Assembly: GCA_009783355.1 (NCBI GenBank)
Contig: WRHH01000002.1
Span: 62,001-126,000 of the forward strand
Length of the DNA stretch: 64,000 nt
Origin: Synergistaceae bacterium
Lineage (GTDB): Bacteria; Synergistota; Synergistia; Synergistales; Aminobacteriaceae
Direction of reading: 5' to 3'
In this document: positions 43,783 through 62,445 of the stretch, one piece after another
How the letters are laid out: each line of letters starts with the position of its first letter
How positions within the stretch are numbered: position 1 is the first letter of the stretch
Position numbers and translations under genes: made by a program
The notes under the pieces: model-generated
What the model saw: only the letters and a program-made list of their open reading frames with translations
Database searches by the model: none
Told to the model about the DNA's origin: nothing

Positions 43783-44793
43783 TTAATACTTATCCGGGTA
43801 CTCTTCCGTTTCTTCTTCTCTTTCCTTATCCTCTTCCGGCGGAAGATTTTTCATTATTTCATCATATTTTTCTCTCGCATATTCGACAAATTCCATCACG
43901 TCGGCGGATAATACGGAATACAACTCTTCCGGAAGATTCTCGCCGATGAGTCCAAGGGAAGGCATTGTCATAGGATTCATATCGACGTCTTCCCAGGTAG
44001 GTTCCGCTATTTTCACCGAGTAAATTATTTTGTCATTCGGGCCAAAAACAGTATAGCGCGTCAGGCGAATTGCTTTCTTTGAAAAACTGTAGTCCGAGTC
44101 GATGACTGCGTAGATAGCGTCCTCATATGGTTGCCTTGTGTATTGCATCACAATGCCCCCCATTTGCATTTCCCATTCGCCGTCAAAAGCTTGAACAGCC
44201 GTCGCCGTACAACCGTCAGGGGCGATTTCAATGCTGTCTCTATTGATGAAAAGCCCGCCTACCACTTCCAACGCTATGGGAATATATTTATCTGCCTCTT
44301 TCGGCCATTTATCTTCCGACAATTGAACGGGCTTCGGATAATCGCTCAGGATTTTCGTTCCCCAGCCGTCCGGCCCCGCAACTCCATCCCATATGATTTC
44401 TTCAGCAGATCCCGGCGCAACTTCCTCCAGCTCCGACTGGAGCAAAGGCTCTGAGGCGAGCGGCGTATCAAGATTTATTTTCAGCGCCATAGCGCGATCA
44501 GACAGCGATATTTTTTTGGAGTTTTTGTCAAAAACCCGTTTTTCGACAAGGGCAAGATCGCTTCTATCGTAAGCGTAGAGCATATCTTTTAAGGTTATGG
44601 TCAAGTCATTGATTACTTCATCGTCGATATCCCTAACTATAGTTGCAACATATTTATCCTGCGTTCCGACTATGAAAGTATCCACGGCTATGTTTAGGTC
44701 GCCCGACAAAATAGGCTGCAACCTGTCGCGCAGAGCCGCGTTTCCAACCGAAGCAAATAACAAAGTCAGTAGAATTGCTGTAAATCTTTTCAT
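43783..44793 (-). CDS. Secreted protein of unknown function
   Basis: AAAGGAG precedes the ATG at 44793. The 336 residues start with a signal peptide (MKRFTAILLTLLFASVGNA). The mature part has no motif I recognise. It is a mixed alpha/beta sequence with LVEKRVFDKNSKKISLSDRAMA, then VGGLFINRDSIEIAPDG and AIYAVIDSDYSFSKKAIRLTRYTVFGPNDKI, and ends in an acidic tail EDKEREEETEEYPDKY. The tail could bind cations or stay disordered. It is the first gene of a two-gene unit with the GT-C-like protein. Confidence 0.65.
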   Translation of the reverse strand: MKRFTAILLTLLFASVGNAALRDRLQPILSGDLNIAVDTFIVGTQDKYVATIVRDIDDEVINDLTITLKDMLYAYDRSDLALVEKRVFDKNSKKISLSDRAMALKINLDTPLASEPLLQSELEEVAPGSAEEIIWDGVAGPDGWGTKILSDYPKPVQLSEDKWPKEADKYIPIALEVVGGLFINRDSIEIAPDGCTATAVQAFDGEWEMQMGGIVMQYTRQPYEDAIYAVIDSDYSFSKKAIRLTRYTVFGPNDKIIYSVKIAEPTWEDVDMNPMTMPSLGLIGENLPEELYSVLSADVMEFVEYAREKYDEIMKNLPPEEDKEREEETEEYPDKY

Positions 44794-44871: not shown

Positions 44872-47800
44872 TTAGCCTTTTCTTCTCATAAACAACGGGA
44901 AGATAACGAACAAAGCAAGCAATAAGGCGCCTGAGTTGCAGCCCGCTCCGTTAAGTATCCTGTCCCAAATGCACTCTTTCTCTCCGGAGAACTTAATTTC
45001 GATATCCTTCGTTTCAGTTGTTCCGGTTTTCTGAAGCGTAACTGTGATTACTTGATCGAATGCATCTCCTGTGAACTTCACATGAAGCTGGCCGTTTGCA
45101 AAGCTGGATTTCCAGTTTGTTCCGCTATGCGGAGTCGAGCCAATGATTTCCCAGCCGTCAAGCATGCCTTCGCACAGTATCAAGCTCGTGCCGTTCAGCA
45201 ACTCAATATATTCAAAGCCGTTCTCGGTCAGTACAGCGCCCGCAGGGAACTTGCCGTCTTTGAACAGATCGAGTATTGCGTGAGGCATAACTTCAATTAC
45301 GCGCACGCCGATAAGGTCGTCCCACGTCGGCAATGCATTAGCGAGCGTGCGGTTGCTTCCGTCAGCGACCACCGGGCGATCATTGCTGGCCATGTCGACC
45401 GTCCACGGAACATTTCCATGTTCGGCGACCGTCAATGTGGCGACATCCCATCCATACATTTTGGAATGCGGGACGAGCGGCGCGAAAGAGCCGTCCTTTT
45501 TGAGGATAAGGTATTTCTTTACGTTCGCGCTTGTCGGAAGCGTAAAGTCAAACTTGCCGTCCTTCAGCGACGGCGCCGACTGGTAGCGTCCAGCTCTCGC
45601 GTGTACCTGAATGTCCCAATCGTATACCTTAATATTGCCAAGTCCGAGTTCCGCCGCAAGCGCAGCGTTCTCATCCTTCGGGAGGAAGCTGAAGAAACGC
45701 GGCACGGCGCCTCTGTTGATCAAAGGAAGCGCGTAGTCCATATCATAGGTCTCTATTACGCCCGGGTTTCCGATGTAACGATATATGGGCATCTCCACGC
45801 CGACAAGCTGAGCGGAAAGCGTGCCTGCGCCGTTGCCTCCCAGCGCCTTGCTCATATACTGAAGCATGATGCCGTTGCCGGCGCTGCACGGCATGTCGGG
45901 CTCCATGTACAGGGGGATCATGTTGATCATTACCTGGCTCATGAATACGACATACGCGTCCTTCTTGAACACCCTGTTGTTGACGTCGAATAAGGTCACG
46001 TCGCGGTTATTCGTTCCCCACGCGCCCGCTCCTGAGTTACCGAAGTCGACAGAGGGCGTCCTGTTGTATTTCCAACCCTGAACGTTGAGCGTCGTGTCCT
46101 TGGCGAGCCGCTTAATTTCAATTCCCGCAATCAACATGCGGGTAGCGACCTCTTCGGCGTACGGCCCCTCGAAAACATAGGCGGTCGGGCGCGCGCGCTC
46201 TCTCAGGTTCCAGCCCTGCCACAGCACCTCAAACTTTATGGGCTGATATTTGCCCTCGCCCGAGTTGTCCGTGACCCACATATGCGGCTCCCCGCCCATA
46301 TCAAATGAAGCGGCTGACGACCCGTCATGCTTCTTGATGGCTTTCGTCGAGTCATACCGCGACATGCCGGAGATATCATTCACTGGTGATGTGCTTGGCC
46401 ACGCTGCGGTGGTTCCGAAGTCGGTGACCCAATACGGATAGTCCCTGTGGTGTTCGAAGCCGTCGCCATGATCAATTTTCTCATTCCAATAAGTCGGTAG
46501 CGGCGCTATCGTGATGATCGGAATCTTGACGTCCTCATCGTAGGTTTTGCCGTTTTCGATCCAGCGCGCCCTCATTGCCTCAAGCTGCGGGACTATCTCA
46601 TGCCCGCGGTTCGCGGCGGTCGTTATCGTGGAAAGCATGCAGATGAAGCCCGTAGCCACGCGGCGCTCCCACATAGCGCGGTTGCCAACGTTGTTGAACG
46701 CTTTGTTCTCGAATAACTGGCTGACCGTGCCGGGCATGGAGTTGATGTTGCGGCTGCTGCGGTGATTGTACGACGCTTCAGTTATGACAGCGTACGGCGC
46801 GTCCGGGTCAAAAGTCCTGTTGGTTACCCAAGTGCCGGTGGCGCCGCAGTTTTGATACGGCCCGAAAACAAGCGGCAGGCTCACAAGGTGCGCAAGGTGC
46901 GGCTTTCTGGCGTATTCAGGGTTTACCGACACATCATCCGGATGACGGACATAACCCGCCCAGTTTCCATATATTGAGCCGGAACCGAACGCATAAGAGT
47001 CCCGTCCTTCGCGATAAAGCCCCATGTATACGGCGTACTTCTCGCCAAATTTGGCAAGATCGGGCTCCATGTACTTGTAACGCAGATGGGTAAGTTCCTT
47101 GGGCGCCTGAAGGATCGTCGTTCCGCTGGAACCTATGTCGCCCGCGTCGTTATCGAACTTAGCGCCAAATTGAGTCGTGAGGCTTGAGTTGACGCTTGAG
47201 CCTCCGCGCTCGTGAAGGTCAATGGCGAAATGCGCTCCGTAAGCCATGTTCATCTTGCGCATCGCGCGGGTCACGTGAATGTCAAGCAGCACGTTGTCGC
47301 GGTTCAAGTCTCTGGTCTGGGGGGTCGGCGTCCACTGAAGAGCTATAAGGTCGCCCGTCTCCCTGTTGGGTATTTTCGCGCCGTCAGTGCAGACGCGGGG
47401 AACAACTATAACGTTTACATTGTCGAGAATATAGTCGTAATCTATACCCGCGAATGAGCCTCCCCTGGCTAACGCATAAGCGCAGGCAAGCGCGCCCTCG
47501 CCGCCGCTCCATTCGCCGCCGTGAATATTGCCCTGAACCCAGACGAGCGGCTTTTTGGTCTTCTTCAACTCAGCGGGGGAACGGTCCTTCGCCGCAACTC
47601 CTCCGGGGATGGTCGGATGGGGTTTGAGGTTGGAGAAAACGAGCATCGGGAATGGGAAACCTCTCGGGATCTCGCCCAAATACTCAACCGTTACTCTTCC
47701 GTCCGCTCCCGGCAAAGCTTTCATTTCTTCGACGCAACCGACTAAATCATATTGGGTGGTGAACATATGCACTCCTACCGTAGTCGGAGCGGCTGCGCCC

Positions 47801-48141
47801 CTGTTAGCTATCTGATAAGCCCAGGCTGCCTCATGCTGCGCCTGTTTTTCACCCAAAAAGCTGGGGGTGTTCCAAATCTGCAGGTCATTGGACGCGCCCT
47901 TGCCGCCGCCGAAGGTGAAGAACTCATTGTTCCAAAAACAGGCCAAACGCATATCGTCAACTCCCCTGGAGCCGCTTGTATTGCTCCAGTCTCCCGGGAA
48001 CAGGTTGTTAACGCTTCTGGAGCCTCCGCGCGCCGAAGTTCCGTCGATATCGCTCGGGTTCGGGTCATACGGGAAAGCAAACGCTGACCCCGCAAACATT
48101 AAAACTACAGTAAATATTAACAAAATTCTTTTCACTGACAT
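44872..48141 (-). CDS. Secreted M14-type metallopeptidase-like protein with Synergist-CTERM
   Basis: The 1089-residue surface protein has a signal peptide (about 1-22), an M14 carboxypeptidase-like catalytic region and a sorting signal. Zinc ligands are H207 and E210 in NIHGGEWSGGEG, and H310 in AIDLHERGG. The R-D-L-N-R-D segment (277-282) fits the substrate-binding Asn-Arg, and E455 in VITEASYN may be the catalytic acid. The last 25 residues, GAGCNSG followed by LLLALFVIFPLFMRRKG, form the Synergist-CTERM signal. TAGGAGGT precedes the ATG. It diverges from the related gene at 50158 across a repeat-rich spacer. Confidence 0.9.
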   Translation of the reverse strand: MSVKRILLIFTVVLMFAGSAFAFPYDPNPSDIDGTSARGGSRSVNNLFPGDWSNTSGSRGVDDMRLACFWNNEFFTFGGGKGASNDLQIWNTPSFLGEKQAQHEAAWAYQIANRGAAAPTTVGVHMFTTQYDLVGCVEEMKALPGADGRVTVEYLGEIPRGFPFPMLVFSNLKPHPTIPGGVAAKDRSPAELKKTKKPLVWVQGNIHGGEWSGGEGALACAYALARGGSFAGIDYDYILDNVNVIVVPRVCTDGAKIPNRETGDLIALQWTPTPQTRDLNRDNVLLDIHVTRAMRKMNMAYGAHFAIDLHERGGSSVNSSLTTQFGAKFDNDAGDIGSSGTTILQAPKELTHLRYKYMEPDLAKFGEKYAVYMGLYREGRDSYAFGSGSIYGNWAGYVRHPDDVSVNPEYARKPHLAHLVSLPLVFGPYQNCGATGTWVTNRTFDPDAPYAVITEASYNHRSSRNINSMPGTVSQLFENKAFNNVGNRAMWERRVATGFICMLSTITTAANRGHEIVPQLEAMRARWIENGKTYDEDVKIPIITIAPLPTYWNEKIDHGDGFEHHRDYPYWVTDFGTTAAWPSTSPVNDISGMSRYDSTKAIKKHDGSSAASFDMGGEPHMWVTDNSGEGKYQPIKFEVLWQGWNLRERARPTAYVFEGPYAEEVATRMLIAGIEIKRLAKDTTLNVQGWKYNRTPSVDFGNSGAGAWGTNNRDVTLFDVNNRVFKKDAYVVFMSQVMINMIPLYMEPDMPCSAGNGIMLQYMSKALGGNGAGTLSAQLVGVEMPIYRYIGNPGVIETYDMDYALPLINRGAVPRFFSFLPKDENAALAAELGLGNIKVYDWDIQVHARAGRYQSAPSLKDGKFDFTLPTSANVKKYLILKKDGSFAPLVPHSKMYGWDVATLTVAEHGNVPWTVDMASNDRPVVADGSNRTLANALPTWDDLIGVRVIEVMPHAILDLFKDGKFPAGAVLTENGFEYIELLNGTSLILCEGMLDGWEIIGSTPHSGTNWKSSFANGQLHVKFTGDAFDQVITVTLQKTGTTETKDIEIKFSGEKECIWDRILNGAGCNSGALLLALFVIFPLFMRRKG

Positions 48142-48218
48142 ATAACTAACCTCCTAATTTATATTGAGCGCGCATCATTTCATATTTGCCCGCCGTTATA
48201 TTAGTATAGTAAAGCCGG

Positions 48219-48378
48219 AGTCCATTTGTCAATGAATATAATAAAAATAAAATAGAAATCTAAAATAAATTAAATACAAAACTGAAATCATTCACCATAC
48301 GTTGCTGAATCATCAGCATTAAAAATATAATTCGTAATAAAAAACAAAAGTCTTCATGTTCCCAATTTCATCATTTAC
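48219..48378. repeat. Upstream-region duplication, copy A
   Basis: GAGTCCATTTGTCAATGAATA through TCTTCATGTTCCCAATTTC, just before the M14 gene. A second version lies at 48838-48962. Both keep ACTGAAATCATTCA and ATACGTT-CTGAATCATCAG; copy A has an extra AT-rich stretch. Confidence 0.8.
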
Positions 48379-48430
48379 TTTGAATAGCCGGAAATTATAC
48401 GCGCAGGTGACGCAGCCAAATAAGAAAACA

Positions 48431-48640
48431 GTAGGGGACGCAGCCCTCGGCGGGCTCGTGCTAGATTGCCATGATATTTTCAATTAACAAGATAACCGGT
48501 AAATCATGGGTTCAAACGCGGGTCGCCCATGGGTGCGACCCCTACGGCCTTCATTACATGGTGTCCATGTTAATTCGCAACATGCCGACCGTGTTGATTC
48601 GTAGTGGACGCAGCCCTCGGCGGGCTCGTGTCTTGTCAAT
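48431..48640. repeat. REP-like dispersed repeat, copy 2 (inverted)
   Basis: Inverse copy of the element at 27052-27256, bounded on both sides by GGACGCAGCCCTCGGCGGGCTCGTG. The spacer 48142-49271 contains no gene that I can support. Confidence 0.8.
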
Positions 48641-48837
48641 AAATATTTGAATATTTATGCGAAAGAAATATTATAAGAAATATTAAACTGCAATATATTT
48701 GTATATATTTTTTAATATGCCGTATTGTGTTGATATAATAAATATATGATGCATAATATATTATTCTTAATTATTTCGTATTTCTTAAAATATATGCTAT
48801 CATAAAATTACGAAAAAGAGCGCTACATTTGATTTCA

Positions 48838-48962
48838 GAGTCCATTTGTCAATAAATATAATAAATATATAATGAGTAATTAATATAAAGTAAATATCAA
48901 ACTGAAATCATTCATCATACGTTACTGAATCATCAGTCTTCATGTTCCCAATTTAGTCTTTA
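48838..48962. repeat. Upstream-region duplication, copy B
   Basis: Direct, somewhat shorter copy of 48219-48378, about 620 bases away. The sequence around TTTGTCAATAAATATAATAAA and GTCTTCATGTTCCCAATTTAG is shared. Confidence 0.8.
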
Positions 48963-49174
48963 ACACATTGCAAATGGACAAACGCAACTGTAGGGGCGGC
49001 TTGTAGTCGCCCGTCTGCAAAATCCACGACAACGCAACATATTACAATTATTTTTCCGTAATACCCCGCATTTCAGGGCAAGGAAATAAGGAACGTCGAC
49101 AACGGCGGATAGCCTTTTTAACTTTGGCTATTTAGAAGCATAGCAAATGGCAATATTATCTGGATCAACAGAAT

Positions 49175-49221
49175 AAAAGCGGCTTCGCATCTCAGATGAA
49201 TTTGATGCAAAGCCGCTTTTT
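49175..49221. terminator. Strong hairpin, probable two-way terminator
   Basis: AAAAGCGGCTTCGCATC and GATGCAAAGCCGCTTTTT form a 16-pair stem with one mismatch and T runs on both strands. It lies downstream of the transposase remnant at 49272 on the minus strand. Confidence 0.75.
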
Positions 49222-49271
49222 GAAACCTGTATTTAACCCCGGAAATTTGGAAAGAAAACTATTAATTTTTG

Positions 49272-49511
49272 TTACAACTTCGACTCGTTATTCAAATCAG
49301 CATCCTGTAAGGATGCGTCTTTTGGTTCCTGCTCGACATCATGAAATATATAATGCTCATCATATTCAATGCCGAATCCATCCAATAAATTCTTAAATCC
49401 CTCGCTGAATAACTTTTTCTTATGAGGATTCGTGTGATGGTTTTCTTGGGTCTTAATATAATTCACCACATCTGAAATTTTGCGATTTTCTGTCCGTTTT
49501 TGCTGTATCAA
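49272..49511 (-). pseudogene. C-terminal remnant of a Y1 (IS200/REP-associated) transposase
   Basis: A 79-residue frame. Its body, VVNYIKTQENHH, then FSEGFKNLLDGFGIEYDEHYIF, matches the usual last ~40 residues of Y1 tyrosine transposases of the REP-associated/IS200 type. The HUH and Tyr catalytic motifs are missing, so it is only the end of a gene. The stop codon falls inside TTTTTGTTACAAC, a dispersed repeat. It lies immediately next to the second remnant (49516-50025). Confidence 0.65.
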
Positions 49512-49515
49512 AACG

Positions 49516-50025
49516 TCAGTTTATCATTCCTCGTATTTGTTCCATTGGTAAACCGGTACTCTTGGCTATTATATCCAGTGGTATTCCATTAAAAAGAAGA
49601 TTCCTTGCAACTTCTTCCTTACCTTTTTCCATGCCCTTTTCCATGCCGCGCTGTTCAATTTCTCTCGCGAGTTCCCTTTCTCCAAGTGGTATGTACACGA
49701 TTTTTCCCTCCTTATTCAGCTGGCTCCTGTATTCTATGTATTTGCTTTCCAATTCTTTATCCCGCAAATCTATTATTCGCTCAAGAAAGAGCAGAAGATC
49801 CCTTTTATCTTCTCTGCTCCAGCCGCGTTCTGCAAGTAGCTCAAGCAGCGTTCGCAAGTATTTGAACTTCACTATCTCCTCTTTAGCCTTAAGCGCACAT
49901 TTCGCAGCGTACAGAGCAAGGTCTATCGGGTTGTCGCTTGCTTGCAGCTCGCCGTCGCCGAGATCCGCCACTATGAGGTTATTGTACTCGTAAGCAATTT
50001 CATTACTTTTGTTACAACCCGCTTC
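49516..50025 (-). pseudogene. Truncated Rpn-family (PD-(D/E)XK) nuclease/transposase, C-terminal part
   Basis: The frame is open from a stop at 50026 without a proper start. It reads GCNKSNEIAYEYNNLIVADL and onward: SDNPIDLALYAAKCALKA, LERIIDLRDKELESKYIEY, and a Lys/Glu-rich MEKGMEKGKEE segment. This is the second half of an Rpn protein. The N-terminal nuclease half is missing, and the junction lies at CTTTTGTTACAACCC (50006-50020), a dispersed repeat. A GTG at 49971 could start a short product, but a functional nuclease is not possible. Confidence 0.75.
50006..50020. repeat. TTTTGTTACAACCC repeat at a truncation point
   Basis: Direct copy of TTTTTGTTACAAC at 49266-49278. Together the two bracket both transposase remnants. 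Confidence 0.6.
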
Positions 50026-50157
50026 TTATATCACAGAATTATTTTCTCATATATACTAAATTTCCGAAATGCGGTGTAAGATTCCGTTGAAAACTTGAAG
50101 TGTTTTCATAATTATGATAAAGTTTCCATAATATTTATTATTCTGGAGGGGTGCATC

Positions 50158-52947
50158 ATGGTTATTGGTAGTTCAAAGAAACTGTTTTTAGCTTTCTTGT
50201 TGTTGTTGCTATTTTCCGTAGCTTCATCCGCCGCATCGTTTTCTGTCCCTGCTTCAGTTTACGACGAATACGAAGCATCCAAAATTGAACGTTTGCCGCC
50301 ATGGGAGACTTTGAAATGGATAGTGCATGATTACGTTGCCGCCGAGGAATCCGCAGCGGAACTCGCGTCAAGGCCTGAATCTCAAGGCCGCTTCAGGGTT
50401 TTTGCTGAAGATGCTGAAGAAACGGATTGGGAGCCGGCTATTCCGTACGGCGGAAATCAAAATGTTTCTGAGGCTGCATGGCCTGCCTCAATGCGTAAGG
50501 GAATGCTTCTCAATGTGCCGGCGGATGCAAAGGAAAAATTTAAGACGCCTATGTTCTGGTACGGCGCCGAAGGATCGGGGCGCGTACCCAGCTATATTGA
50601 CGCTGATGGAAATTATGTCAAGGGAACGCACGATCCTAAATCGGACGAACCGGGCAATATAGGCTACATAACGATGAACCTTGAGAACGAAATGTGGTTC
50701 AAAGAGCTCTCCGAGAATCCGCTATTTCAAGGCGAAAACAGGCGTATGCAATTCCATCTTGTAACCGGTATCCCGAATTACACCGGAAACACAAGTAATC
50801 ACGCGCTCGCAAGGACATTCAATATGATTGTCGCCGTCTTCAGCAAGCCTTCGGTCTTTACGCCGGAAGAGGTGAGGAAACTCGGAAAACCCGTTGTATT
50901 GTTACATGCCCAGATACACGGAAATGAAAACACTCCGGGAGAAGCTATGTTACAAATAGCGAAGGAACTTTCGGAAGGCAAACACGATAATATACTTGAC
51001 AAAATTACCGTTGTAATGGTGCCGCGCGTCAATCCAACAGGCGCATGGCTCAACACGAGAGGAACACAGTCGCTTGCTCCTGTCGGGCACGCGGGGCAGA
51101 GCGCAGGCGCATTTGACATGAACCGGGACAACGTTGGTTTTGAAGCGTTGGAAATCAAACTTATCCGATATTTGGCGAACGAGTATAATCCCATCGCAGG
51201 TTACGATGGACATGAGCAGGGTGGAAATTATGACTCGGGCGAGTACGCCCTGAACGCTTCGGGAGGCATGACCAGCAATGGTTACCGCAGGGGGTATGAC
51301 GCGGGCATTTCTATATCAACCGCAAACAATTTTAACGTTCATCGCGATGTTCGCGGGCTCGCCAAGTTCATATACGAGCCAATCATGATAGAAGAGCTTA
51401 ATAAAGCTAAAATTGGAGCGAACTGGTATAGGTCGGCTACCCTCAGCGGCGTCCCGAACGGCGCCTTATCGGCTGATGTTGTATCAAGCGATGGAGTCTC
51501 AGGCCCGATATCGGGAGAAATACGCTGGCCCGGCTCGCAAACCGATGCTATTCTGACTACCTCGGATGCGGTAATCATGAACGCAATAAGCCTTGGCAAC
51601 CAATCCATAAATTTCTGTTCGGAAGGTTCCAGGATGACGTCAAACAGCATAGCAAGACTGGGCGCTATGCGCATCGTATACGGGCAATACATAAGCGCAA
51701 TGACGATACTGAAAGTTTCGGCTGAGTATCTCGATACCGATGTCATGCCGACTATCAGTATGGCAAGGGATTTGGAAATAGCTAATGCGCTGCCGCTTAC
51801 CTTCTGGGGGCGTCCGCCCACTGAACACGTTGCAGCAGAATGGAATGTACTTGAATATAAGGACTGGAGGAAGGAAGACGTCCCTGAAGTTGTAGAAGCA
51901 ATAGCGCCAGGAACAAGACCGATAAGGGAAGTAAGGGCGTTTTATGCAGAGCTCGACCCCAATGCAGCGGTTACGCGCCCTGTAGCGTACATAATCGATA
52001 AAGAACACTATTTAGCGGCAGTAAGGCTCTACTACACAGGGATAGGCGCTAAAATTGAAAGATTGGCTCAAGACACGACGATTCCGGTTGAAGCATACAC
52101 CGTCCTGACCACCGGCGCTACAAATCTCAGCCCGCAAAACAGCGGCAACACGCCTCAGGTTCCCACCGGGATAAGGTCGGTTTCGAAGGCCGACAAGACG
52201 ATGACGTTCCCGAAGGACAGCTTTGTTGTGAGGATGGACTCGCTTGGAGGCATCATGTCGGCGTTGTTGCTGGAACCGATGGCCACTAACAACTTCGGTA
52301 ACATGTGGCTCAGCCGCTCTCGCGGAACGAGCGGCAACACGGCCAATATTCCGGCGTGGTACCGCGACAATTTCCTGCCCGTTGAGATAGGTAAGGAATT
52401 TCCTGCATATCGGTATGTGGGAAGCTTGGGCAGCCTTAACACATATCCTTCCAGATTGAATCTTCCTTTTGTATTGACGGCTGTAGAAAGGGTTCACTCG
52501 CTCACACAGGCGGACGTGGCGAAAATTAAGACTCAATTCGGGCTTGAAGCTGATCCAGAATACATCAGCTTGTTCGAGCTTCCGGTGCTCTCCACGGATA
52601 ATTACAAAAACACGCCGCGCGTCGAATTGAACGAGGCATTTTTGCTTCCTGACGGAGAAGTTGTCAAAATTAAAGACGAGTATATTCTTGATGGGAAAGA
52701 TTTCGATATAAAGAGCCTTTCGATCTTGCCCGCGCCCCCCGTTGTGTTGATTGTAGCTCAAAAAGGACTTGGCGATAACGAGATTTACATAGCTAAGAAT
52801 GACGGAGGCTTTGATACAATAGTACAGGAAACAACGAAACCTCCGAAGCCTACGCTGCCGCCGCCGCCGCCGGAATCAGGATGCAACGCTCCGATGTTGA
52901 TTTTGGCTGCACTTATTCCATTTATGCTGATAGTTAGGAAAAAATAG
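50158..52947 (+). CDS. Second secreted M14-type metallopeptidase-like protein with Synergist-CTERM
   Basis: ATG at 50158 is chosen because GGAGGGG lies just upstream and a signal peptide follows (SSKKLFLAFLLLLLFSVASSA); the open frame to 50095 is not needed. The 929 residues contain H254 and E257 in AQIHGNENTPGE, N322-R323 in FDMNRDN, and H352 in GYDGHEQGG, the M14 zinc and substrate residues. The C-terminus is a proline linker (KPPKPTLPPPPP), then ESGCNAPMLILAALIPFML and a basic end, the Synergist-CTERM signal. It is related in design to the gene at 44872 but diverged. Confidence 0.9.
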   Translation: MVIGSSKKLFLAFLLLLLFSVASSAASFSVPASVYDEYEASKIERLPPWETLKWIVHDYVAAEESAAELASRPESQGRFRVFAEDAEETDWEPAIPYGGNQNVSEAAWPASMRKGMLLNVPADAKEKFKTPMFWYGAEGSGRVPSYIDADGNYVKGTHDPKSDEPGNIGYITMNLENEMWFKELSENPLFQGENRRMQFHLVTGIPNYTGNTSNHALARTFNMIVAVFSKPSVFTPEEVRKLGKPVVLLHAQIHGNENTPGEAMLQIAKELSEGKHDNILDKITVVMVPRVNPTGAWLNTRGTQSLAPVGHAGQSAGAFDMNRDNVGFEALEIKLIRYLANEYNPIAGYDGHEQGGNYDSGEYALNASGGMTSNGYRRGYDAGISISTANNFNVHRDVRGLAKFIYEPIMIEELNKAKIGANWYRSATLSGVPNGALSADVVSSDGVSGPISGEIRWPGSQTDAILTTSDAVIMNAISLGNQSINFCSEGSRMTSNSIARLGAMRIVYGQYISAMTILKVSAEYLDTDVMPTISMARDLEIANALPLTFWGRPPTEHVAAEWNVLEYKDWRKEDVPEVVEAIAPGTRPIREVRAFYAELDPNAAVTRPVAYIIDKEHYLAAVRLYYTGIGAKIERLAQDTTIPVEAYTVLTTGATNLSPQNSGNTPQVPTGIRSVSKADKTMTFPKDSFVVRMDSLGGIMSALLLEPMATNNFGNMWLSRSRGTSGNTANIPAWYRDNFLPVEIGKEFPAYRYVGSLGSLNTYPSRLNLPFVLTAVERVHSLTQADVAKIKTQFGLEADPEYISLFELPVLSTDNYKNTPRVELNEAFLLPDGEVVKIKDEYILDGKDFDIKSLSILPAPPVVLIVAQKGLGDNEIYIAKNDGGFDTIVQETTKPPKPTLPPPPPESGCNAPMLILAALIPFMLIVRKK

Positions 52948-52974
52948 CGGTCAGTACAAAGACAAAAGAGATAG

Positions 52975-53006
52975 GGGGCTGTAACAGAACAAAATGGAAC
53001 AGCCCC
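52975..53006. repeat. GGGGCTGT/ACAGCCCC hairpin
   Basis: A short hairpin with the same GGGGCTGTAACAG end as the element at 32140. No T run follows, so it is more likely a repeat than a terminator. Confidence 0.6.
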
Positions 53007-53020
53007 TAATAAGCAAATAA

Positions 53021-53060
53021 AAAATCTCATTTCCGCTGTATTGGAAATGAGATTTTCCTT
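53021..53060 (+). terminator. Intrinsic terminator after the M14 gene at 50158
   Basis: AAAATCTCATTTCC and GGAAATGAGATTTT form a perfect 14-pair stem with an 8-base loop; a TTTTCCTTT tail follows. Confidence 0.75.
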
Positions 53061-53064
53061 TACA

Positions 53065-53148
53065 TTTTGCCGCCGAGGCGCCGAAAACAAGCAAAAGAGT
53101 CAATGCCAGCGCCGATAAAAAAGCTGTTTTCCTTCCGTTGCTTTTCAT
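53065..53148 (-). pseudogene. Orphan signal-peptide remnant, paralogue of the giant protein's N-terminus
   Basis: The first 28 residues of a minus-strand frame read MKSNGRKTAFLSALALTL, then LLVFGASAAK. The giant protein at 62321 starts [18 protein letters not shown], then [10 protein letters not shown]. After these residues the frame runs into the terminator hairpin and repeats. It is the 5' end of a lost or deleted relative of the giant gene. Confidence 0.65.
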
Positions 53149-53435: not shown

Positions 53436-56400
53436 TTACTGGTTCACCACCGTCACCGTAAGCGAGCCTATCGGCGCCGTTACGCCGTCAACGTAGAAAT
53501 TTAGCTTATACGTTGGTTGAAAGAGAAGGCTTGCGTTGAAGCTGTAGCTTACAAGGCTTGTCGGCGCGTATATGCCCGAGCCCGGGGCCGTCTCTTTCAT
53601 CTTAATCCGGTTGGGGGACTCGACACCTTGATTATTGACGTTTACTATATAGACGTCCTGCCCGCTCAGCCCGTCAATTTTGACTTCAACTGAATTTCTG
53701 TTGGTCATCCCGTTCGCGTTGATGTTTGTTCCGCCTACCGTCGTTAGGGTGAAATCGGGCGCCGTGCCACGAATGTCGTTTTGAATCTCGCTGTAAGTCA
53801 TCGTCGCGGGGTAAACCCTCACAAGCCTCGTGAACTCCACTAATTTGACCTGTTTTTCGCGCGTCACGGGCGCGAAGTAAATAGCTCCTGAATAGCTGTC
53901 CTTATATGCTTCTTTCAGAGCTTCGTCAATTACTATGTACGGTGTTTTTTCCGCGTAATAATGACTGCGCGCGCCGCTCGTTTGCCAGCCTTCCAGATCC
54001 TCAAGCCCGTAGCCGCCTTGCGATTTCCAATTTTCATAAGCAGCGAAAACCGAAGTCCAATTAATGGGATCTCCCGCTTTAACCGTCTGCCAATAGAAGG
54101 AAGTATTAAGCTTCACGGGGCCGTTTCCGAAATCGTAATCGTAATAGCCGATGAACCCGATTGAATAGCTCGTTATCTCCTCTTCCCATTGGGCTGTCAA
54201 AGTCAAGCCGCCCGTCACAGGTTTATCGAAGCTGTAGAGAGCGCCGTCTATATACCAGCCGATGAATGTGAAACCTGCCTTTGCCGGTGCTCCTGGATTT
54301 GTCGCCGCATTGCCGTGATTCACGGTCTGGCTGGTGAACTCAACGCCGTCCGACATGAAGATTACGGTGTATTTGTTAATTTCGTACTGAGCCGTCACCG
54401 TCAGGTCTGAAGCGACGATTGAGAAATCCGCATCCCAGCCGGTGAAAGCGTAGCCTTCCCGCGCGGGATCCGCCGGAGCGGTCGCGCTTCCGCCGAAGGG
54501 TACAGTCTGCGTTTTGAGCGCCGTTCCGTTCCAGTCGGCGAAAGTTACGGTGTAGTTGATGATGCTGAACTGCGCGTACACTGTCAAATCGTTGGTGATT
54601 TCTGAGAAATCTTTGTCCCAGCCGGTGAATGTGTGGCCTGTCTTAACCGGTTCTCCCGGATCAACTGCGGACGAGCCGTGTTCCACTATTTGGCTGTTGA
54701 ACTCAACGCCGTCCGACATGAAAATTACGGTGTATGTGTTGATTTTGTATTGCGCAGTCACGAAAAGATCGTCGGTGACGTTCGAGAAATCCGCGTCCCA
54801 GCCCGCGAAGGTGAAACCCTTTCTTACGGGATCCGCCGGAGCTGTCGCGCCGGAGCCGAGTTCGACAGTCTGCTCGTCAATCACAGAGCCGTCCCAGTCG
54901 ATGAAGGTAACTATGAAAGTCTCAACGGTCGCCGCGTTCACCGTGATGGTGAAGTCCTTGATGAAATCCTTATAAACCTTTTCATGGCTGCCCCAGTCAT
55001 TGTCCGCGCCAACGCGGCCGGGCGCGTTACGGTTCGTGGTCGTTCCGTTGCCTAATTGACCGAATCGGTTATCTCCCCAAGCCCAGAGGCTGCCGTCCGC
55101 TTTCAGCGCTACAGTGTGTGCGTAGTAGTCCCAACCCGTTTTTTGCAGCGAAACGGCTTTCCAATCATTATCCGTGCCCACCCGGACTGGTGTATTTCGC
55201 CGTGCCGTCGTGCCGTCGCCCAGTTCACCGAATCGATTATCTCCCCAAGCCCAGAGGCTGCCGTCCGCTTTCAGCGCTGCAGAATAATGATAGCCCCCGA
55301 AAACAGAACTCCAGTCGTTCGCTGTTCCCACTCGTACAGGAGAGTAGCGGTTTGTGTCCGTGCCGACGCCAAGTTGACCCACACTGTTCAGTCCCCAAGC
55401 CCACAGGCTGCCGTCCGCTTTGAGGGCTATTACATGAGTGGCGCCTGCCGAGGCGGCGATCCAGTTGTAATCCGATCCTATTCGTGTGGGGGTATTGCGG
55501 TCTATGGTCGTGCCGTCGCCAAGTCGACCATTATAATTCTCTCCCCAAGTCCACAGACTGCCGTCCGTTTTAATGGCCACGGTGAAAGAGTCAATAATGG
55601 AAGGATTATTGCTACTGTAAAACCCCGACGCCGAAACTGATGCCCAGTCGTAGTCAGTTCCTATGCGAACGGGTGTGCTGCGGTTCGCGGTTGTTCCATC
55701 GCCGAGCTGTCCATATTGATTATTCCCCCAAGCCCACAGGCTTCCGTCCGTTTTAAGCGCCACGGTGTGCGCTTCGCACGCGGAAACCGCCGCCCAGTCA
55801 TTATCAGTTCCCACGCGGACGGGGGAGCTGCGGCTTGTGGTCGTGCCGTCGCCGAGCTGTCCATAATTATTGTATCCCCATACCCACAGGCTGCCGTCCT
55901 TTTTCAGCGCCGCGTTGTGATATCCGCCCACTGAAACGTTTATCCAATCGTTGTCCGTTCCGACGCGCGCGGGAGTGTTGCGGTTAGTCGTCGAGCCGTT
56001 GCCTAACTGTCCGGCGTGGTTATAGCCCCAACTCCACAGGCTGCCGTCCTTTTTCAGCGCCACGGTATGCCCGTAACCCGCCCCGATGACGGCTATATCT
56101 CCGGCCTCTAAGCCATTCTTAATAGTCGCTCTGACGATCACCGAACCCTCCGCCATGGCTGTCAGGACGTCGCCCGATAACGCCGCTCCGGTCGTTCCCG
56201 CGTCCTTGACGCTCCAGACAATGTCCTTATTGGTAGCGTTAGTCGGGATCACCGTTCCTGTCAGTATGAGAGGTTTGTTTACCTCGGTCTCGTCCGGGAC
56301 ATTGATGATGTCCGTCACCGGCACGAATTGAGCTGTTTCAAATAGCGCTGTTATCGTCAAGTCGCCTGTGATGTTCGAGAAATCCGCGTCCCAGCCGGTG

Positions 56401-59400
56401 AATACATGACCTTCCTTCGTCGGCGCGCCGGGATCGGCCGCCGCTTTTCCGTGTTCCACCGTCTGGCGATTGAACTCAATGCCGTCCGACATAAAGATTA
56501 CCGTGTATTTGTTGATTTCGTACAGCGCGTTCGCCGTCAGGTCTGCAGTTACGTTCGAGAAATCCGCGTCCCAGCTTTTGAAAGTGTAACCTTCTTTCGT
56601 CGGCGCGCCGGGGTCGGTTGCAGCTTTGCCGTGCTCCACCGTCTGGCGGTTGATCTCAATGCCGTCAGCTATGAAACTTACTGTATATGTGTTGATGTCG
56701 AACATTGCTGTAATCGTCAGGTCGCTGGTGATATACAAGAAGCTCATATCCCATCCTTTGAAGGTGTAGCCTTCCATGACAGGTATACCGGGATCGGTCG
56801 CCGCATTCCCGTGTTCAACTATCTGGCGGCTGAACTCTCCGCCTGCTGCCATGAAAATTACGGTGTATTTGTTGATATCGTACTGCGCCGTAACCGTCAG
56901 GTTGCCGATTATGTTCTTGAAATCCGTATCCCAGCCGGTGAAGGTATGACCTACCCGCGCGGGATCCGCCGGGGCGGCCGCAGCTGAGCCGTAGGGCACT
57001 ATTTGCGTTTCCAGCACTTCTCCGTTCCAGTCGGCGAAAGTCACGGTGTAGTTGATGATGCTGAAGATTGCGTTCACGGTCAAATCGCCGGTGATTTCTG
57101 AGAATACCTTATCCCAGCTATTGAATGTGTAACCTGTCTTTACCGGTATGCCGGGATCAACTGCGGCTGAGCCGTGTTCGACCTTCTGGCTGTTGAATAC
57201 AACTCCGTCGACCATGAAGACTACTGTGTATTTGTTGATTTCATACACCGCATTGACGAAAAGCTCGTCGGTGACGTTCGAGAAATCCGCGTCCCAGCCT
57301 GTGAAAGTGTAACCCGTTCTTACGGGATCCGCCGGAGCTGTCGCGCCGGAGCCGAGTTCGACAGTCTGCTCGTCAATCACAGAGCCGTCCCAGTCGATGA
57401 AGGTAACAATGAAAGTCTCAACGGTCGCCGTGTTCACCGTGATGGTGAAGTCCTTGATGAAATCACTCGGGAATATGACTTCAACAGGAGTGCTGCGCGT
57501 AGCCGTCGTTCCGTCGCCCAGCTGACCGTCGTTGTTCCTTCCCCACGCCCACAGGCTGTCGTCAGATTTTATGGCTGCAGTGTGATTAACGCCTGCTGCA
57601 ACCGCTTTCCAGTCGTTCGCCGTTCCCACGCGTTGAGGCGTGTTGCGGGCAGTCGTCGCGCCGTCGCCCAGCTGACCGTAATAATTATATCCCCACGCCC
57701 AGAGGCTGCCGTCCATTTTTAAAGCCGCAGTGTGATACCCGCCTGCTGCAATCTCCGCCCAGTCATTCGCCGTTCCCACGCGTTGGGGCGCGTTACGCGT
57801 TGTTGCCACGCCGTCGCCAAGCTGACCGTATTGGTTCAATCCCCACGACCAGAGGCTGCCGTCCGTCCTTTTGGCTATGGTGTGTTGGTTGCCTGCAGCA
57901 ACCGACGCCCAGTCATTCGCAGCTCCTATGCGTTTTGGCGTCCTGCTGGCAGTTGTCGTGCCGTCGCCAAGCTGACCGTAGAAGTTATATCCCCAAGCCC
58001 AAAGGCTGCCGTCAGTCTTTATGGCCTCAGTGTGCAGGTAGCCTGCCGTAACCGACGCCCAGTCATTAGCTGCTCCTACGCGAACGGGCGAGTTGCGGTC
58101 AGTCGCCGTGCCATCGCCAAGCTGGCCTTCAATGTTCCATCCCCACGCATAGAGGCTGCCGTCCGTTTTTATGGCCACAGTGTGCTCGTAGCCTGCCGTA
58201 ACCGCCGCCCAGTCGTTCGCCGTTCCAACTCTTACCGGCGCGTTGCGGTCATTCGCCGCGCCGTCGCCCAATTGACCGTATTGATTACTTCCCCAAGCCC
58301 AGAGGCTGCTGTCCGTTTTTATGCCTATGGTGTGATTAAGCCCCACGGCAACCGCCGCCCAGTCATTCTCTGTTCCTACGCGGACGGGTGTAACTCTGTC
58401 AGTGTTTGTACCGTCGCCTAGCTGACCGTTTTGATTCAATCCCCAAGCCCAGAGGCTGCCGTCCGTCTTTATTGCCGCCGTATGATAAATGCCTACGGCA
58501 ACAGCGGTTACTCCACAGTTCTCAAGACCGTCTTTGACAGTCGCCGTGACGACTGCCGCGCCCGCCGCCGAAGCCGTCACGACGTCGCCCGCAATAACGG
58601 CGCCGGTCGTTCCCGCGTCCTTGACGCTCCAGATTATGTCCTTGTTGGTCGCGTCACTTGGGATCACCGTTCCCGTCAGTGTAAGCGGCGCGTTTACCTC
58701 AGCCTCGTCCGGGACGTCGATGATGTCCGTCACCGGCACAAAGTTGGATTCTTTCTTAAATTGCGCGGTTATCGTCAAATCGCCTGTGATGTTCGAGAAA
58801 TCCGCATCCCAGCCGGTGAACGCATGGCCTTCCTTCGTAGGTACGCCTGGATCTGTCGCCGAAGCGCCGTGTTCCACCGTCTGGCGGTTGAACTCTATGC
58901 CGTCAGCAATGAATATTACGATGTATTTGTTGATTTCGTACTGCGCGGTAACAATCAGGTCGCTTTTTACGTTTGTGAAATCAACATCCCAGCCTGTGAA
59001 GGTATACCCTTCTCTCACGGGATCCGCAGGGGCTATGGCGTCGGCGCCGTATTCAAGCATCTGCTTATTAAGCACCGCTCCGTTCCAGTCAACAAAAGTC
59101 ACGGTGATGTCGATGCCCATAAATACCGCTGTTACGGTCAGATCGCTTGTGACTTTGGAGAAATCTATATCCCAGCCTAAGAAAGTCTTGCCTTCCTTAA
59201 CCGGTACGCCGGGATCGGCCGCCGCTCCTCCGTGTTCAACTATCTGGCGGTTGAACTCAACTTCGTCTGCAATGAAAATTACGGTGTACTTGTTTATTTC
59301 GTACTGCGCCGTCACCGTCATATTTGAAGTGACGATTGAGAAATCCGAGTCCCAGCTGGTGAAGGCGTAACCTTCCCTTACAGGATTCGCCGGTGCGGCG

Positions 59401-62321
59401 GCGCCTGCGCCGAATGGCACTGTCTGCGTTTTAAGAACATCTCCGTTCCAGTCGACGAAAGTTACGGTGTAGTAGTTGATGCTGAACTGAGCGTTCACGG
59501 TCAAATCACTGGTGATTTCTGAGTAGTCTTTATCCCAGCTGGTAAAAGTGTAGCCTGGTTTTACCGGTTCGCCCGGGTCGACTACTTTTGAGCCGTATTC
59601 GACAATCTGTCTGTTGAACACTACGTCGTCAACCATGAAAGTCACGGTGTATTTAATTCTCTCATACACAGCATTGACGTACAGGTCGTCGGTGACGTTG
59701 AAAAAGTCCTCATCCCAGCCAATGAAGGTATATCCTTCCCTCACGGGGTCGGCCGGGGCTGTCGCGGCCGACCCTTTTTCAACCCTCTGCTCTTTAAGCA
59801 CGTCGCCGTTCCAGTCCATGAACGTTACTAAGAAAGTTTCAGCGGTGCTCTCGTTTACCGTGATGGTGAAGTCCTTGGTGAAAATCTTGTCGCCCGTGCT
59901 GTCCCCGTCAACGCTAATGCGGACTGGCGAGTTTCGGATAGTATTCGTGCCGGCGCCCAGCTGACCGTAATAATTATACCCCCAAGCCCATAGGCTGCCG
60001 TCAGTTTTTATGGCTATGGTGTGAAAACTGCCCGCAGCAACCGCTGCCCAGTCATTCGTTGTCCCCACTTGTTGCGGCGTCTTGCTGTCAGCGTCCGTGC
60101 CGTCGCCCAGCTGACCTAAATCATTCATTCCCCACGCCCAGAGACTGCCGTCTGTTTTTATGGCTAATGTATGTTGGTAGCCCGAAACAATCGCCTTCCA
60201 GTCATTCGTTGTTCCCACGCGTTGCGGTGTGTTGCGGTAGAAATCGGTAGAGCCGTCGCCCAGTTGACCGTTATAATTGTATCCCCAAGACCAGAGACTA
60301 CCGTCAGTTTTTAGGGCTATGGAGTGATATTGGCCTGCAGTAACCGCAGCCCAGTCATTAGCTGTTCCCACGCGTTGGGGCGTGTTGCTGTCATTGTACG
60401 TGCCGTCGCCCAGCTGACCGTAATGATTAAATCCCCAAGCCCAGAGGCTGCCGTCTGTTTTTATGGCTATGGTGTGATATAGACCCGCAGAAGCCGCCGC
60501 CCAGTCGCTCGCTGTTCCCACGCGTTGGGGCGTGTTACTGTCAGTGTTTGTCCCGTCGCCCAGCTGACCGCTGTTATTGTATCCCCACGCCCAGAGGCTG
60601 CCGTCAGTTTTTATAGCTATTGTGTGCGCATAGCCTGCGGTAACCGCAGCCCAGTCATTCGCCGTCCCCACGCGGACGGGTTCGTCGCGGTCAATGTTCG
60701 AGCCGTCGCCAAGATGACCGTAAAAATTATCTCCCCATGCCCAGAGGCTGCCGTCGGTTTTTATGGCCACTGTGTGCAAATAGCCAGCAGCAACCGCCGC
60801 CCAGTCATTCGCCAAACCCGCGCGTATGGGTTTGTTGCTGTCATCGTTCGTGCCGTCGCCCAGCTGACCGAATTCGTTATTTCCCCACGCCCAGAGACTG
60901 CCGTCCGTTTTTATGGCCATCGTGTGAAATGCGCCCAAAGCAAGCGTCGGCATGCTAGTCGCTTTTACCACGCGGACGGGCTCTAGTCTGTCAGTGTTCG
61001 TGCCGTCGCCCAGCTGACCGAATTCGTTATTTCCCCACGCCCAGAGGCTTCCGTCAGTTTTTAACGCTACACTGTATCGGGATCCTGCGGAAACCACCGC
61101 CCAGTCGCTCGCTGTTCCTACGCGGACGGGCGCATATCTGGTAGTTCTCGTACCATCGCCCAGCTGGCCGTTTCCATTATATCCCCACACCCAGACGCTA
61201 CCGTCCTTTTTCATAGCTGCTGTGTGAAAAGCGCGCGCAGAGATCGCCGCCCAGTCAGTCGCTGTTCCTACGCGGACGGGCGCATGTCTATCAGTGTCCG
61301 TTCCGTCACCAAGCTGACCGAAATTATTCCATCCCCACGCCCAGAGGCTGCCGTCTGTTTTTATGGCTATGGAGTGATATAGACCCGCAGAAATCGCCGC
61401 CCAGTCAGTTTCTGTTCCCACGCAGACGGGTGTAAGTCTTTCGTCGGTCGTACCGTCTCCCAGCTGACCGAAATAATTTGATCCACACGCCCAGAGGCTG
61501 CCGTCGGTTTTCAACGCTACGAAGTGGTGGATGCCCGCAGCAACCGCTGTCCAGTCAGTCTCTATTCCTACGCGGGCGGGTGCAAGTTTGTCATTGTATG
61601 TTCCGTCCCCCAGCTGACCGTCGTTTCTTCCCCACGCCCAGAGGCTGCCGTCCTTTTTCAAAGCTATGCTGTATTCGTCGCCTGCAGCGACCGCCGCCCA
61701 GTCATATGCTGTTCCTACACGAGCGGGCGAATTTCTATCATTGTACGTGTCGTCGCCCAGCTGACCGTTTCCATTATATCCCCACGTCCAAAGGCTGCCG
61801 TCCTTTTTCAGCGCTATGGAGTGAAAACCCCTAGCAGCAATCGCCGTCCAGTCAGTTTCTGTTCCTACACGAACGGGCGCAAGTCTATCAGTGTTCGTGC
61901 CGTCGCCTAACTGACCGTCGCTATTCCTTCCCCACGCCCAGAGGCTGCCGTCTGTTTTTAGGGCTATAGTGTAATCTGAGCCCGCAACAACCGACAACCA
62001 GTCATTGCCATCCGGGTCGTTTGCCACCGTCGCCGTAACGGTGACTATTCCCGCCGCAGTTGTGTTGAGTGTGTCGCCGCTGATCACGGCGCCGGTTGTC
62101 CCCGCGTCCTTGACGCTCCAGATAATGTCCTTATTGGTCGCGTTACCCGGAATCACCGTACCCTTAAGAGTCAGGGGCGTGTTTGCCGTGGCCTCGTCCG
62201 GGACGTCGATGATGTCCGTCACAGGTACAAAGTCAATGTTTGCCGCAGAAGAACTGAAGATAAGAAACAGCGTCAGCGCCAATGCCGTTAATAGCGCCGG
62301 TTTACTCCCGATACTTTTCAT
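53436..62321 (-). CDS. Giant secreted RCC1/InlB-repeat protein (2961 residues)
   Basis: ATG at 62321 has GGAGGT upstream; the frame to 62357 is an extension. A signal peptide (about 1-28, [18 protein letters not shown]) is followed by three supermodules, each made of a Big-like domain beginning [13 protein letters not shown], a block of RCC1 repeats (about 50 residues; [21 protein letters not shown]) and InlB-type B-repeats (YTVTF...[15 protein letters not shown]). RCC1 repeats number 14, 7 and 7; B-repeats number 6, 6 and 4. The last ~245 residues form a unique domain with no sorting signal. Likely a secreted adhesin or matrix protein; RCC1 blades suggest propellers binding a ligand. The function is inferred. 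Confidence 0.9.
54170..56330 (-). repeat. Supermodule 3 of the giant protein
   Basis: Big-like domain (about 1997-2080), seven RCC1 repeats (about 2078-2445) and four B-repeats (about 2464-2717). The B-repeat order (DWDG, MSDG, DWNG, MSDG types) repeats that of the other modules. Confidence 0.85.
56331..58755 (-). repeat. Supermodule 2 of the giant protein
   Basis: Big-like domain (about 1190-1270), seven RCC1 repeats (about 1270-1617) and six B-repeats (about 1625-1997). Confidence 0.85.
58756..62234 (-). repeat. Supermodule 1 of the giant protein
   Basis: Big-like domain (about 30-105), fourteen RCC1 repeats (about 107-802) and six B-repeats (about 820-1190). After repeat 7 the regular [10 protein letters not shown] linker is replaced by [12 protein letters not shown]. 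Confidence 0.85.
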
Positions 62322-62445
62322 TGCGATACCTCCAATAATTGAATTTTGGCATGACAAAAAATATGTTATTTTCTATGTGTTTGAAGTGTTTTTATTATAC
62401 ACTCTGTGATTACATTTGTTAATATTATGAATATGATTTGTTATG

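Follow-up and report, generated by a model that had tools for sequence, protein, structure and literature searches.

Why would a member of the Synergistaceae carry, back to back, two large secreted proteins that each combine a peptidase M14 active site with a C-terminal sorting tail? The question arises from a divergent gene pair in the window, by which we mean the whole stretch of DNA that was analysed (64,000 nucleotides). The pair consists of P0001 (44872..48141, minus strand, 1089 aa) and P0002 (50158..52947, plus strand, 929 aa counted from the ATG at 50158, the mechanical ORF beginning at a TTG and reaching 950 aa). An earlier note on this DNA had described both as M14-type proteins that begin with an N-terminal signal and end in a Synerg-CTERM tail, an observation that we confirm, while the interpretation attached to it is partly supported. 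We propose that P0001 and P0002 probably belong to a large repertoire of M14 exopeptidases, specific to the lineage, that is displayed at the cell surface via MrtS and T2SS and trims peptides for fermentation. The kinds of components involved were already known; the scale of the M14 expansion is the unexpected and new part.

Two homologous proteins with a complete M14 active site

Both proteins exceed the cut-off (21.6 bits) of the Pfam peptidase M14 family (PF00246), P0001 with 34.2 bits (HGGE ... DLNRDN, 47296..47598, minus strand) and P0002 with 28.5 bits (HGNE ... DMNRDN, 50866..51129, plus strand). The alignment places every position of the active site in each of them, namely the zinc-binding HxxE...H set, the NR pair, the Arg and the catalytic Glu, which bears out the former assignment to M14 on the basis of HxxE...H and NR; in P0001 the third zinc ligand and the catalytic Glu are situated downstream of the Pfam match. 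The corresponding residues of P0002 are H254, E257, R301, N322, R323, H352 and E489, of which H352 is the likely third zinc ligand and E489 the likely catalytic Glu, judging from their order and invariance. The two proteins are homologous to each other: their catalytic parts align over 129 aa with 33% identity (E 4e-15), and a stretch of 196 aa in the C-terminal halves shows 30%.

Apart from M14, the sole Pfam result for P0001 and P0002 was an AstE/AspA match under the threshold; neither protein thus shows a wall-binding domain, and no Pfam family matched the M14 proteins in their C-terminal half. Their sizes do lie above those of simple carboxypeptidases, as had been remarked, yet 560-1008 aa is usual for the M14 family elsewhere in Synergistota. 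When a profile was built from 25 of the 26 M14 proteins of the genome and searched against the PDB, carboxypeptidases were matched over the first half of the catalytic domain (37 distinct sequences at E<=0.1, the best being 1uwy at 7.9e-8); phmmer searches of the same databank gave no match for P0001 and a best E of 0.21 for P0002. An AlphaFold model of P0001, computed from a five-row alignment, reached a mean pLDDT of 41.1, and the carboxypeptidase fold is therefore not confirmed by the model.

The spacer between the divergent genes (48142..50157) is indeed rich in repeats, which are real though diverged: a 99-nt sequence occurs in two copies at 85%, accompanied by shorter repeats. What had been taken for transposase debris in this spacer turned out to come from a nuclease/transposase-like protein of the Rpn family (TIGR01784; 49516..49971, minus strand). 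What is left is its C-terminal end, which covers positions 215-271 of the 273 of the model and scores 35.5 bits, under the cut-off of 52.1.

The Synerg-CTERM tail and its sorting enzyme

The tails of P0001 (AGCNSGALLLALFVIFPLFMRRKG; 44875..44949, minus strand) and P0002 (SGCNAPMLILAALIPFMLIVRKK; 52876..52944, plus strand) both run from Gly-Cys-Asn through a hydrophobic stretch to basic residues, and both stand at the extreme C-terminus of a secreted protein. Scored with TIGR04564 (curated cut-off 22.5) in the genome scan, P0001 reaches the cut-off with 22.5 bits and P0002 falls narrowly under it with 21.4; scanned as whole proteins, they obtain 16.9 and 15.0 bits, respectively. Taken alone and against the strict cut-off, these scores would leave both tails borderline. 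They are settled by the genome, which holds 58 matches to TIGR04564 (E<=10; 21 above the cut-off), every one of them at the C-terminal end of an ORF, and which thereby supplies other genes with the same tail. Of the two findings that would have refuted the earlier note, an absence of such genes clearly does not apply; a lack of any hit to the CTERM model does not apply to P0001, and P0002 falls slightly short of the curated cut-off. At E<=0.01 the model finds 34 matches in this genome and none in 14 control genomes; at E<=10, half of the controls (7/14) give a match, none of which is above the cut-off. A single match among the 58 is doubtful, in a 98-aa ORF on contig C4.

By eye, the tail was recognized in two more M14 ORFs (C6:16283 and C2:21997), which makes 60 tail-bearing ORFs totalling 53,009 aa, or 7.6% of the assembly (C2:21997 being counted at its full 856 aa). 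A crude check of N-terminal hydrophobicity is passed by 59 of these 60 versus 8 of the 19 other ORFs of the window. Within the window the tail is confined to P0001 and P0002, the remaining three of five pattern matches having no hydrophobic stretch. Both proteins hence appear to belong to the Synerg-CTERM group by the form of the tail and by the company it keeps, with a membership that is borderline by score. Another of the 58 matches, on contig C13, lies in a 49-aa ORF (G000:C13:1937-2086; L050:338-487, minus strand) that represents what is left of the 3' end of a P0001-like M14 gene, with its tail, and that shares 62% identity with residues 1044-1088 of P0001.

The sorting enzyme anticipated by the earlier note is present. 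The genome encodes exactly one CPBP (Rce1-like) protein (G000:C14:2182-2724), carrying EExxxR and HxxxN, and this protein is MrtS (NF040589, 240.9 bits for a cut-off of 130), the enzyme already assigned by NCBIfam to the Synerg-CTERM system. The association holds at the level of the phylum: among 149 of the 185 Synergistota genomes (tail at E<=0.01, MrtS homologue at E<1e-30), 100 have both, 40 have neither, seven have the tail only and two have MrtS only. The corresponding Fisher test gives p 1.5e-26, a statistic that ignores kinship, and nine of the 149 genomes break the pairing. A T2SS operon, comprising GspD with its N0 domain, a T2SSE ATPase, an N-methylated pseudopilin and two PDZ proteins, is also found in the genome, together with one Lgt.

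Rhomboid proteases are the enzyme class of the GlyGly-CTERM system, whose tails are marked by a GlyGly signature. The one rhomboid protease of this genome was considered as the sorting enzyme and held less likely, since all 14 control genomes have one as well and the tail bears Cys instead of GlyGly.

Function suggested by the tagged proteins

The 35 tagged ORFs outside M14 include further peptidases of families M20 (five, one under cut-off), C69 (four), S8 (three), S15 (one) and M28 (one). They also include amidases (two), GH10 (two), RCC1-repeat (five) and GLUG proteins (three) and two with Ig-like repeats only, the rest being one rhodanese, one metallophosphatase and five with nothing above thresholds. 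The tag is not specific to peptidases, because its carriers include two GH10-like proteins and several repeat proteins. Nevertheless, once the 25 tagged M14 proteins are included, peptidases account for 39 of the 60 tail-bearing ORFs, and a role in protein or peptide breakdown fits for this reason. The earlier note had envisaged a surface system breaking down protein or peptidoglycan; the first half of that proposal fits, and for the second half Pfam offers no domain beyond M14 in P0001 and P0002.

Some bacterial M14 peptidases cleave wall peptides. P0001 and P0002 might likewise act on peptidoglycan, as surface enzymes that strip wall peptides from the cell itself or from foreign walls, and the digestion of peptidoglycan residues as well as peptides by soil-feeding termites (PMC8784593, in excerpt) would suit such enzymes. 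We regard this as unlikely, given that the two proteins are devoid of any wall-binding or other additional Pfam domain and that their tagged company consists mostly of ordinary protein and peptide peptidases.

For peptide trimming at the surface, the reading that we prefer, the following route can be proposed. Each tagged M14 protein would be exported by Sec and anchored in the inner membrane by its C-terminal helix, and the MrtS/T2SS route, with putative cleavage and lipidation, would then bring it to display on the outer surface. MrtX, a related myxosortase, cleaves MYXO-CTERM in a manner that needs the cysteines of the tail, also in E. coli, and T2SS export after lipidation is the model of the authors for that system (PMC11980579, in excerpt). 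Once at the surface, the M14 proteins may trim peptides together with the tagged S8 endopeptidases and the tagged M20, M28, C69 and S15 exopeptidases, and the trimmed peptides would feed the amino-acid uptake of a presumed peptide fermenter. One species of Synergistetes that ferments peptides and amino acids has been described (PMC5738826, in excerpt).

Number and history of the M14 genes

The assembly (2.1 Mb, 80% complete) contains 26 M14 genes at E<=0.1, 25 of them over the Pfam cut-off, as counted in a single-genome scan; the phylum-wide scans scored 12-15 of those 26. Together these proteins amount to 24,109 aa, or 3.5% of the assembly, and a profile built from the M14 set separates them cleanly from the other 35 proteins. 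Elsewhere M14 is scarce, with 159 of the 185 Synergistota genomes giving no match at E<=0.01. The next-highest counts are seven (G104) and five (G129, which belongs to the same genus as the window genome and is 77% complete), and the remainder have one or two. Among the 29 M14 ORFs found in other Synergistota, the end can be seen in 25, and a tail was recognized by eye in 22 of those, the exceptions lying in G097, G113 and, for one of its ORFs, G129. M14 proteins are thus usual tagged clients across the phylum, and it is their multiplication that is particular to this genome among the 185. In the congeneric G129, an assembly of 270 contigs, the tail model found nothing at E<=0.01; one S8 ORF of that genome ends in the tail (E 0.6), and its MrtS match is a 31-residue piece.

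Gene number could in principle be a by-product of tandem duplication or of transposon-rich DNA, many of the copies being unused. Tandem runs occur on contigs C4 (four genes), C15 (three) and C26 (two), the C13 remnant records at least one decayed copy, and the Rpn remnant and repeats lie near P0001 and P0002 themselves. Against this, every active-site residue (H, E, R, N, R, H, E in the alignment) is kept in all 26 proteins, a count that concerns this genome only; the row of G097, outside that count, has no alignment beyond the HxxE region. The tail is kept in 25 of the 26 (23 by model and two by eye). The M14 tree of 52 rows, to which other genomes contributed domains longer than 250 aa, requires at least 10 changes of genome label, and several old subfamilies have each expanded, with five P0001-like members, five P0002-like members and six on C4/C15/C3. 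The set is therefore not the product of one recent burst, and we judge the by-product explanation even less probable than an action on the wall.

Genes next to the pair

Downstream of P0001, at a distance of 78 bp and in the same orientation, lies the gene of a candidate partner (43783..44793, minus strand). Its product is a 336-aa protein with a signal-peptide-like start and no tail, for which searches of Pfam and NCBIfam gave no match. One homologue directly follows a P0001-like gene (L105:3040-4053, plus strand, 44% identity). Two others (L064:909-2027, minus strand, and L026:1698-2606, plus strand) were found on C15, divergent from the P0002-like trio (52%), and on C12, immediately after a tagged M20 gene (29%). 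The family thus adjoins tagged M14 or M20 genes in all four places seen, an association exposed to selection bias because the searched loci were picked around tagged genes. It is perhaps a second novelty beside the scale of the expansion.

On the other side of the pair, beyond P0002, lies the gene of a giant 2973-aa protein in which RCC1 repeats alternate with List_Bact repeats (53436-62357, minus strand). That this protein forms one system with P0001 and P0002, as the earlier note had suggested from their adjacency and as the tails of five other, smaller RCC1-repeat proteins of the genome might encourage, is very improbable and was rejected, since the giant has no Synerg-CTERM tail and its gene lies beyond P0002 from P0001 and is convergent with P0002, hence without a shared transcript. 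Just downstream of the giant gene, at about 52950-53110 (minus strand), a signal-peptide-like start, MKSNGRKTAFLSALALTLLLVFGASAA, is followed by a broken frame; it probably represents the 5' part left from a further RCC1-repeat gene.

Relatives and habitat

Searching named genomes with the P0001 group returned three loci in two MAGs, namely Synergistaceae Roe453_bin29 (L105) and Lab288P3bin103 (L106 and L107), and the scan of genome contigs with the P0002 group gave no match. Lab288P3bin103 is taken as a congener of the window genome because its M14 places equal those of the same-genus G129. Lab288 designates Labiotermes labralis, a termite that feeds on soil; in the study concerned, six MAGs of Synergistetes were recovered, from P3 and P4 of termites that eat humus or soil (PMC7024585, in excerpt). 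Roe453_bin28 was obtained from the termite Roisinitermes ebogoensis (PMC11707648, in excerpt), so Roe453_bin29 presumably has the same origin. We infer that the window organism inhabits a termite gut. Soil-feeding termites are documented to digest peptidic soil matter (Ji and Brune 2005, cited in PMC8784593, in excerpt).

The combination of a P0001-like M14 gene and a ~336-aa gene occurs in Roe453_bin29 (L105, apparently G176 by the place of its match), a genome assigned to family f2 and genus g40, the window genome being placed in family f1; genus g40 also includes G104 with its seven M14 matches. The occurrence of this combination across families may reflect either shared ancestry or exchange between gut lineages.

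As a tentative scenario, in which we place distinctly less confidence than in the surface set itself, a gut lineage of Synergistaceae may have used the MrtS/Synerg-CTERM route to build a coat of about 26 M14 exopeptidases, probably differing in their C-terminal preferences, along with tagged endopeptidases that make their substrates, and so exploit peptides bound to humus in the hindgut of termites. The ~336-aa protein would then be a dedicated partner, whether an inhibitor, a folding helper or a docking protein. At stake is an extreme, genome-specific gain of surface exopeptidases tied to a group whose nearest named relative inhabits a soil-feeding termite.

Comparison with known systems

Compared with peptidase M14 as known (PF00246; carboxypeptidase M, 1uwy; carboxypeptidase A4, 2pcu), the proteins studied here are alike in their Pfam match, their PDB profile match and the full set of active-site residues. 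They differ in size, being mostly 750-1100 aa with one of 1380, in a C-terminal half that belongs to no Pfam family, in the added C-terminal sorting tail and, in many cases, in a DxHE or DGHE around the third zinc ligand.

The MYXO-CTERM/MrtX system of Myxococcus xanthus (PMC11980579, in excerpt) shares with the present one a tail made of Cys, a transmembrane stretch and basic residues, a CPBP glutamic intramembrane protease, and the presence of T2SS and Lgt genes. MrtS and MrtX are nevertheless separate NCBIfam families, the CPBP protein of this genome scoring 54 bits on MrtX for a cut-off of 180, and cleavage was demonstrated experimentally for MrtX, whereas the system described here is known from its genes. 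Our full-text literature search on Synerg-CTERM, TIGR04564 and MrtS found no paper in the collection that it covered; a 2024 J Bacteriol paper on myxosortase discovery, cited in PMC11980579 (in excerpt), may well describe the system.

With the Synerg-CTERM/MrtS system as defined by TIGR04564 and NF040589, finally, the tail motif, the single MrtS above cut-off and the co-occurrence across the phylum are all alike, and nothing categorical differs. What distinguishes this genome is quantitative: it is among the tail-richest (34 matches at E<=0.01, a number exceeded in one of 149 genomes), and its clients are mostly peptidases. Its tagged proteins thereby offer concrete clients for a sorting system that is apparently known mostly from computation.
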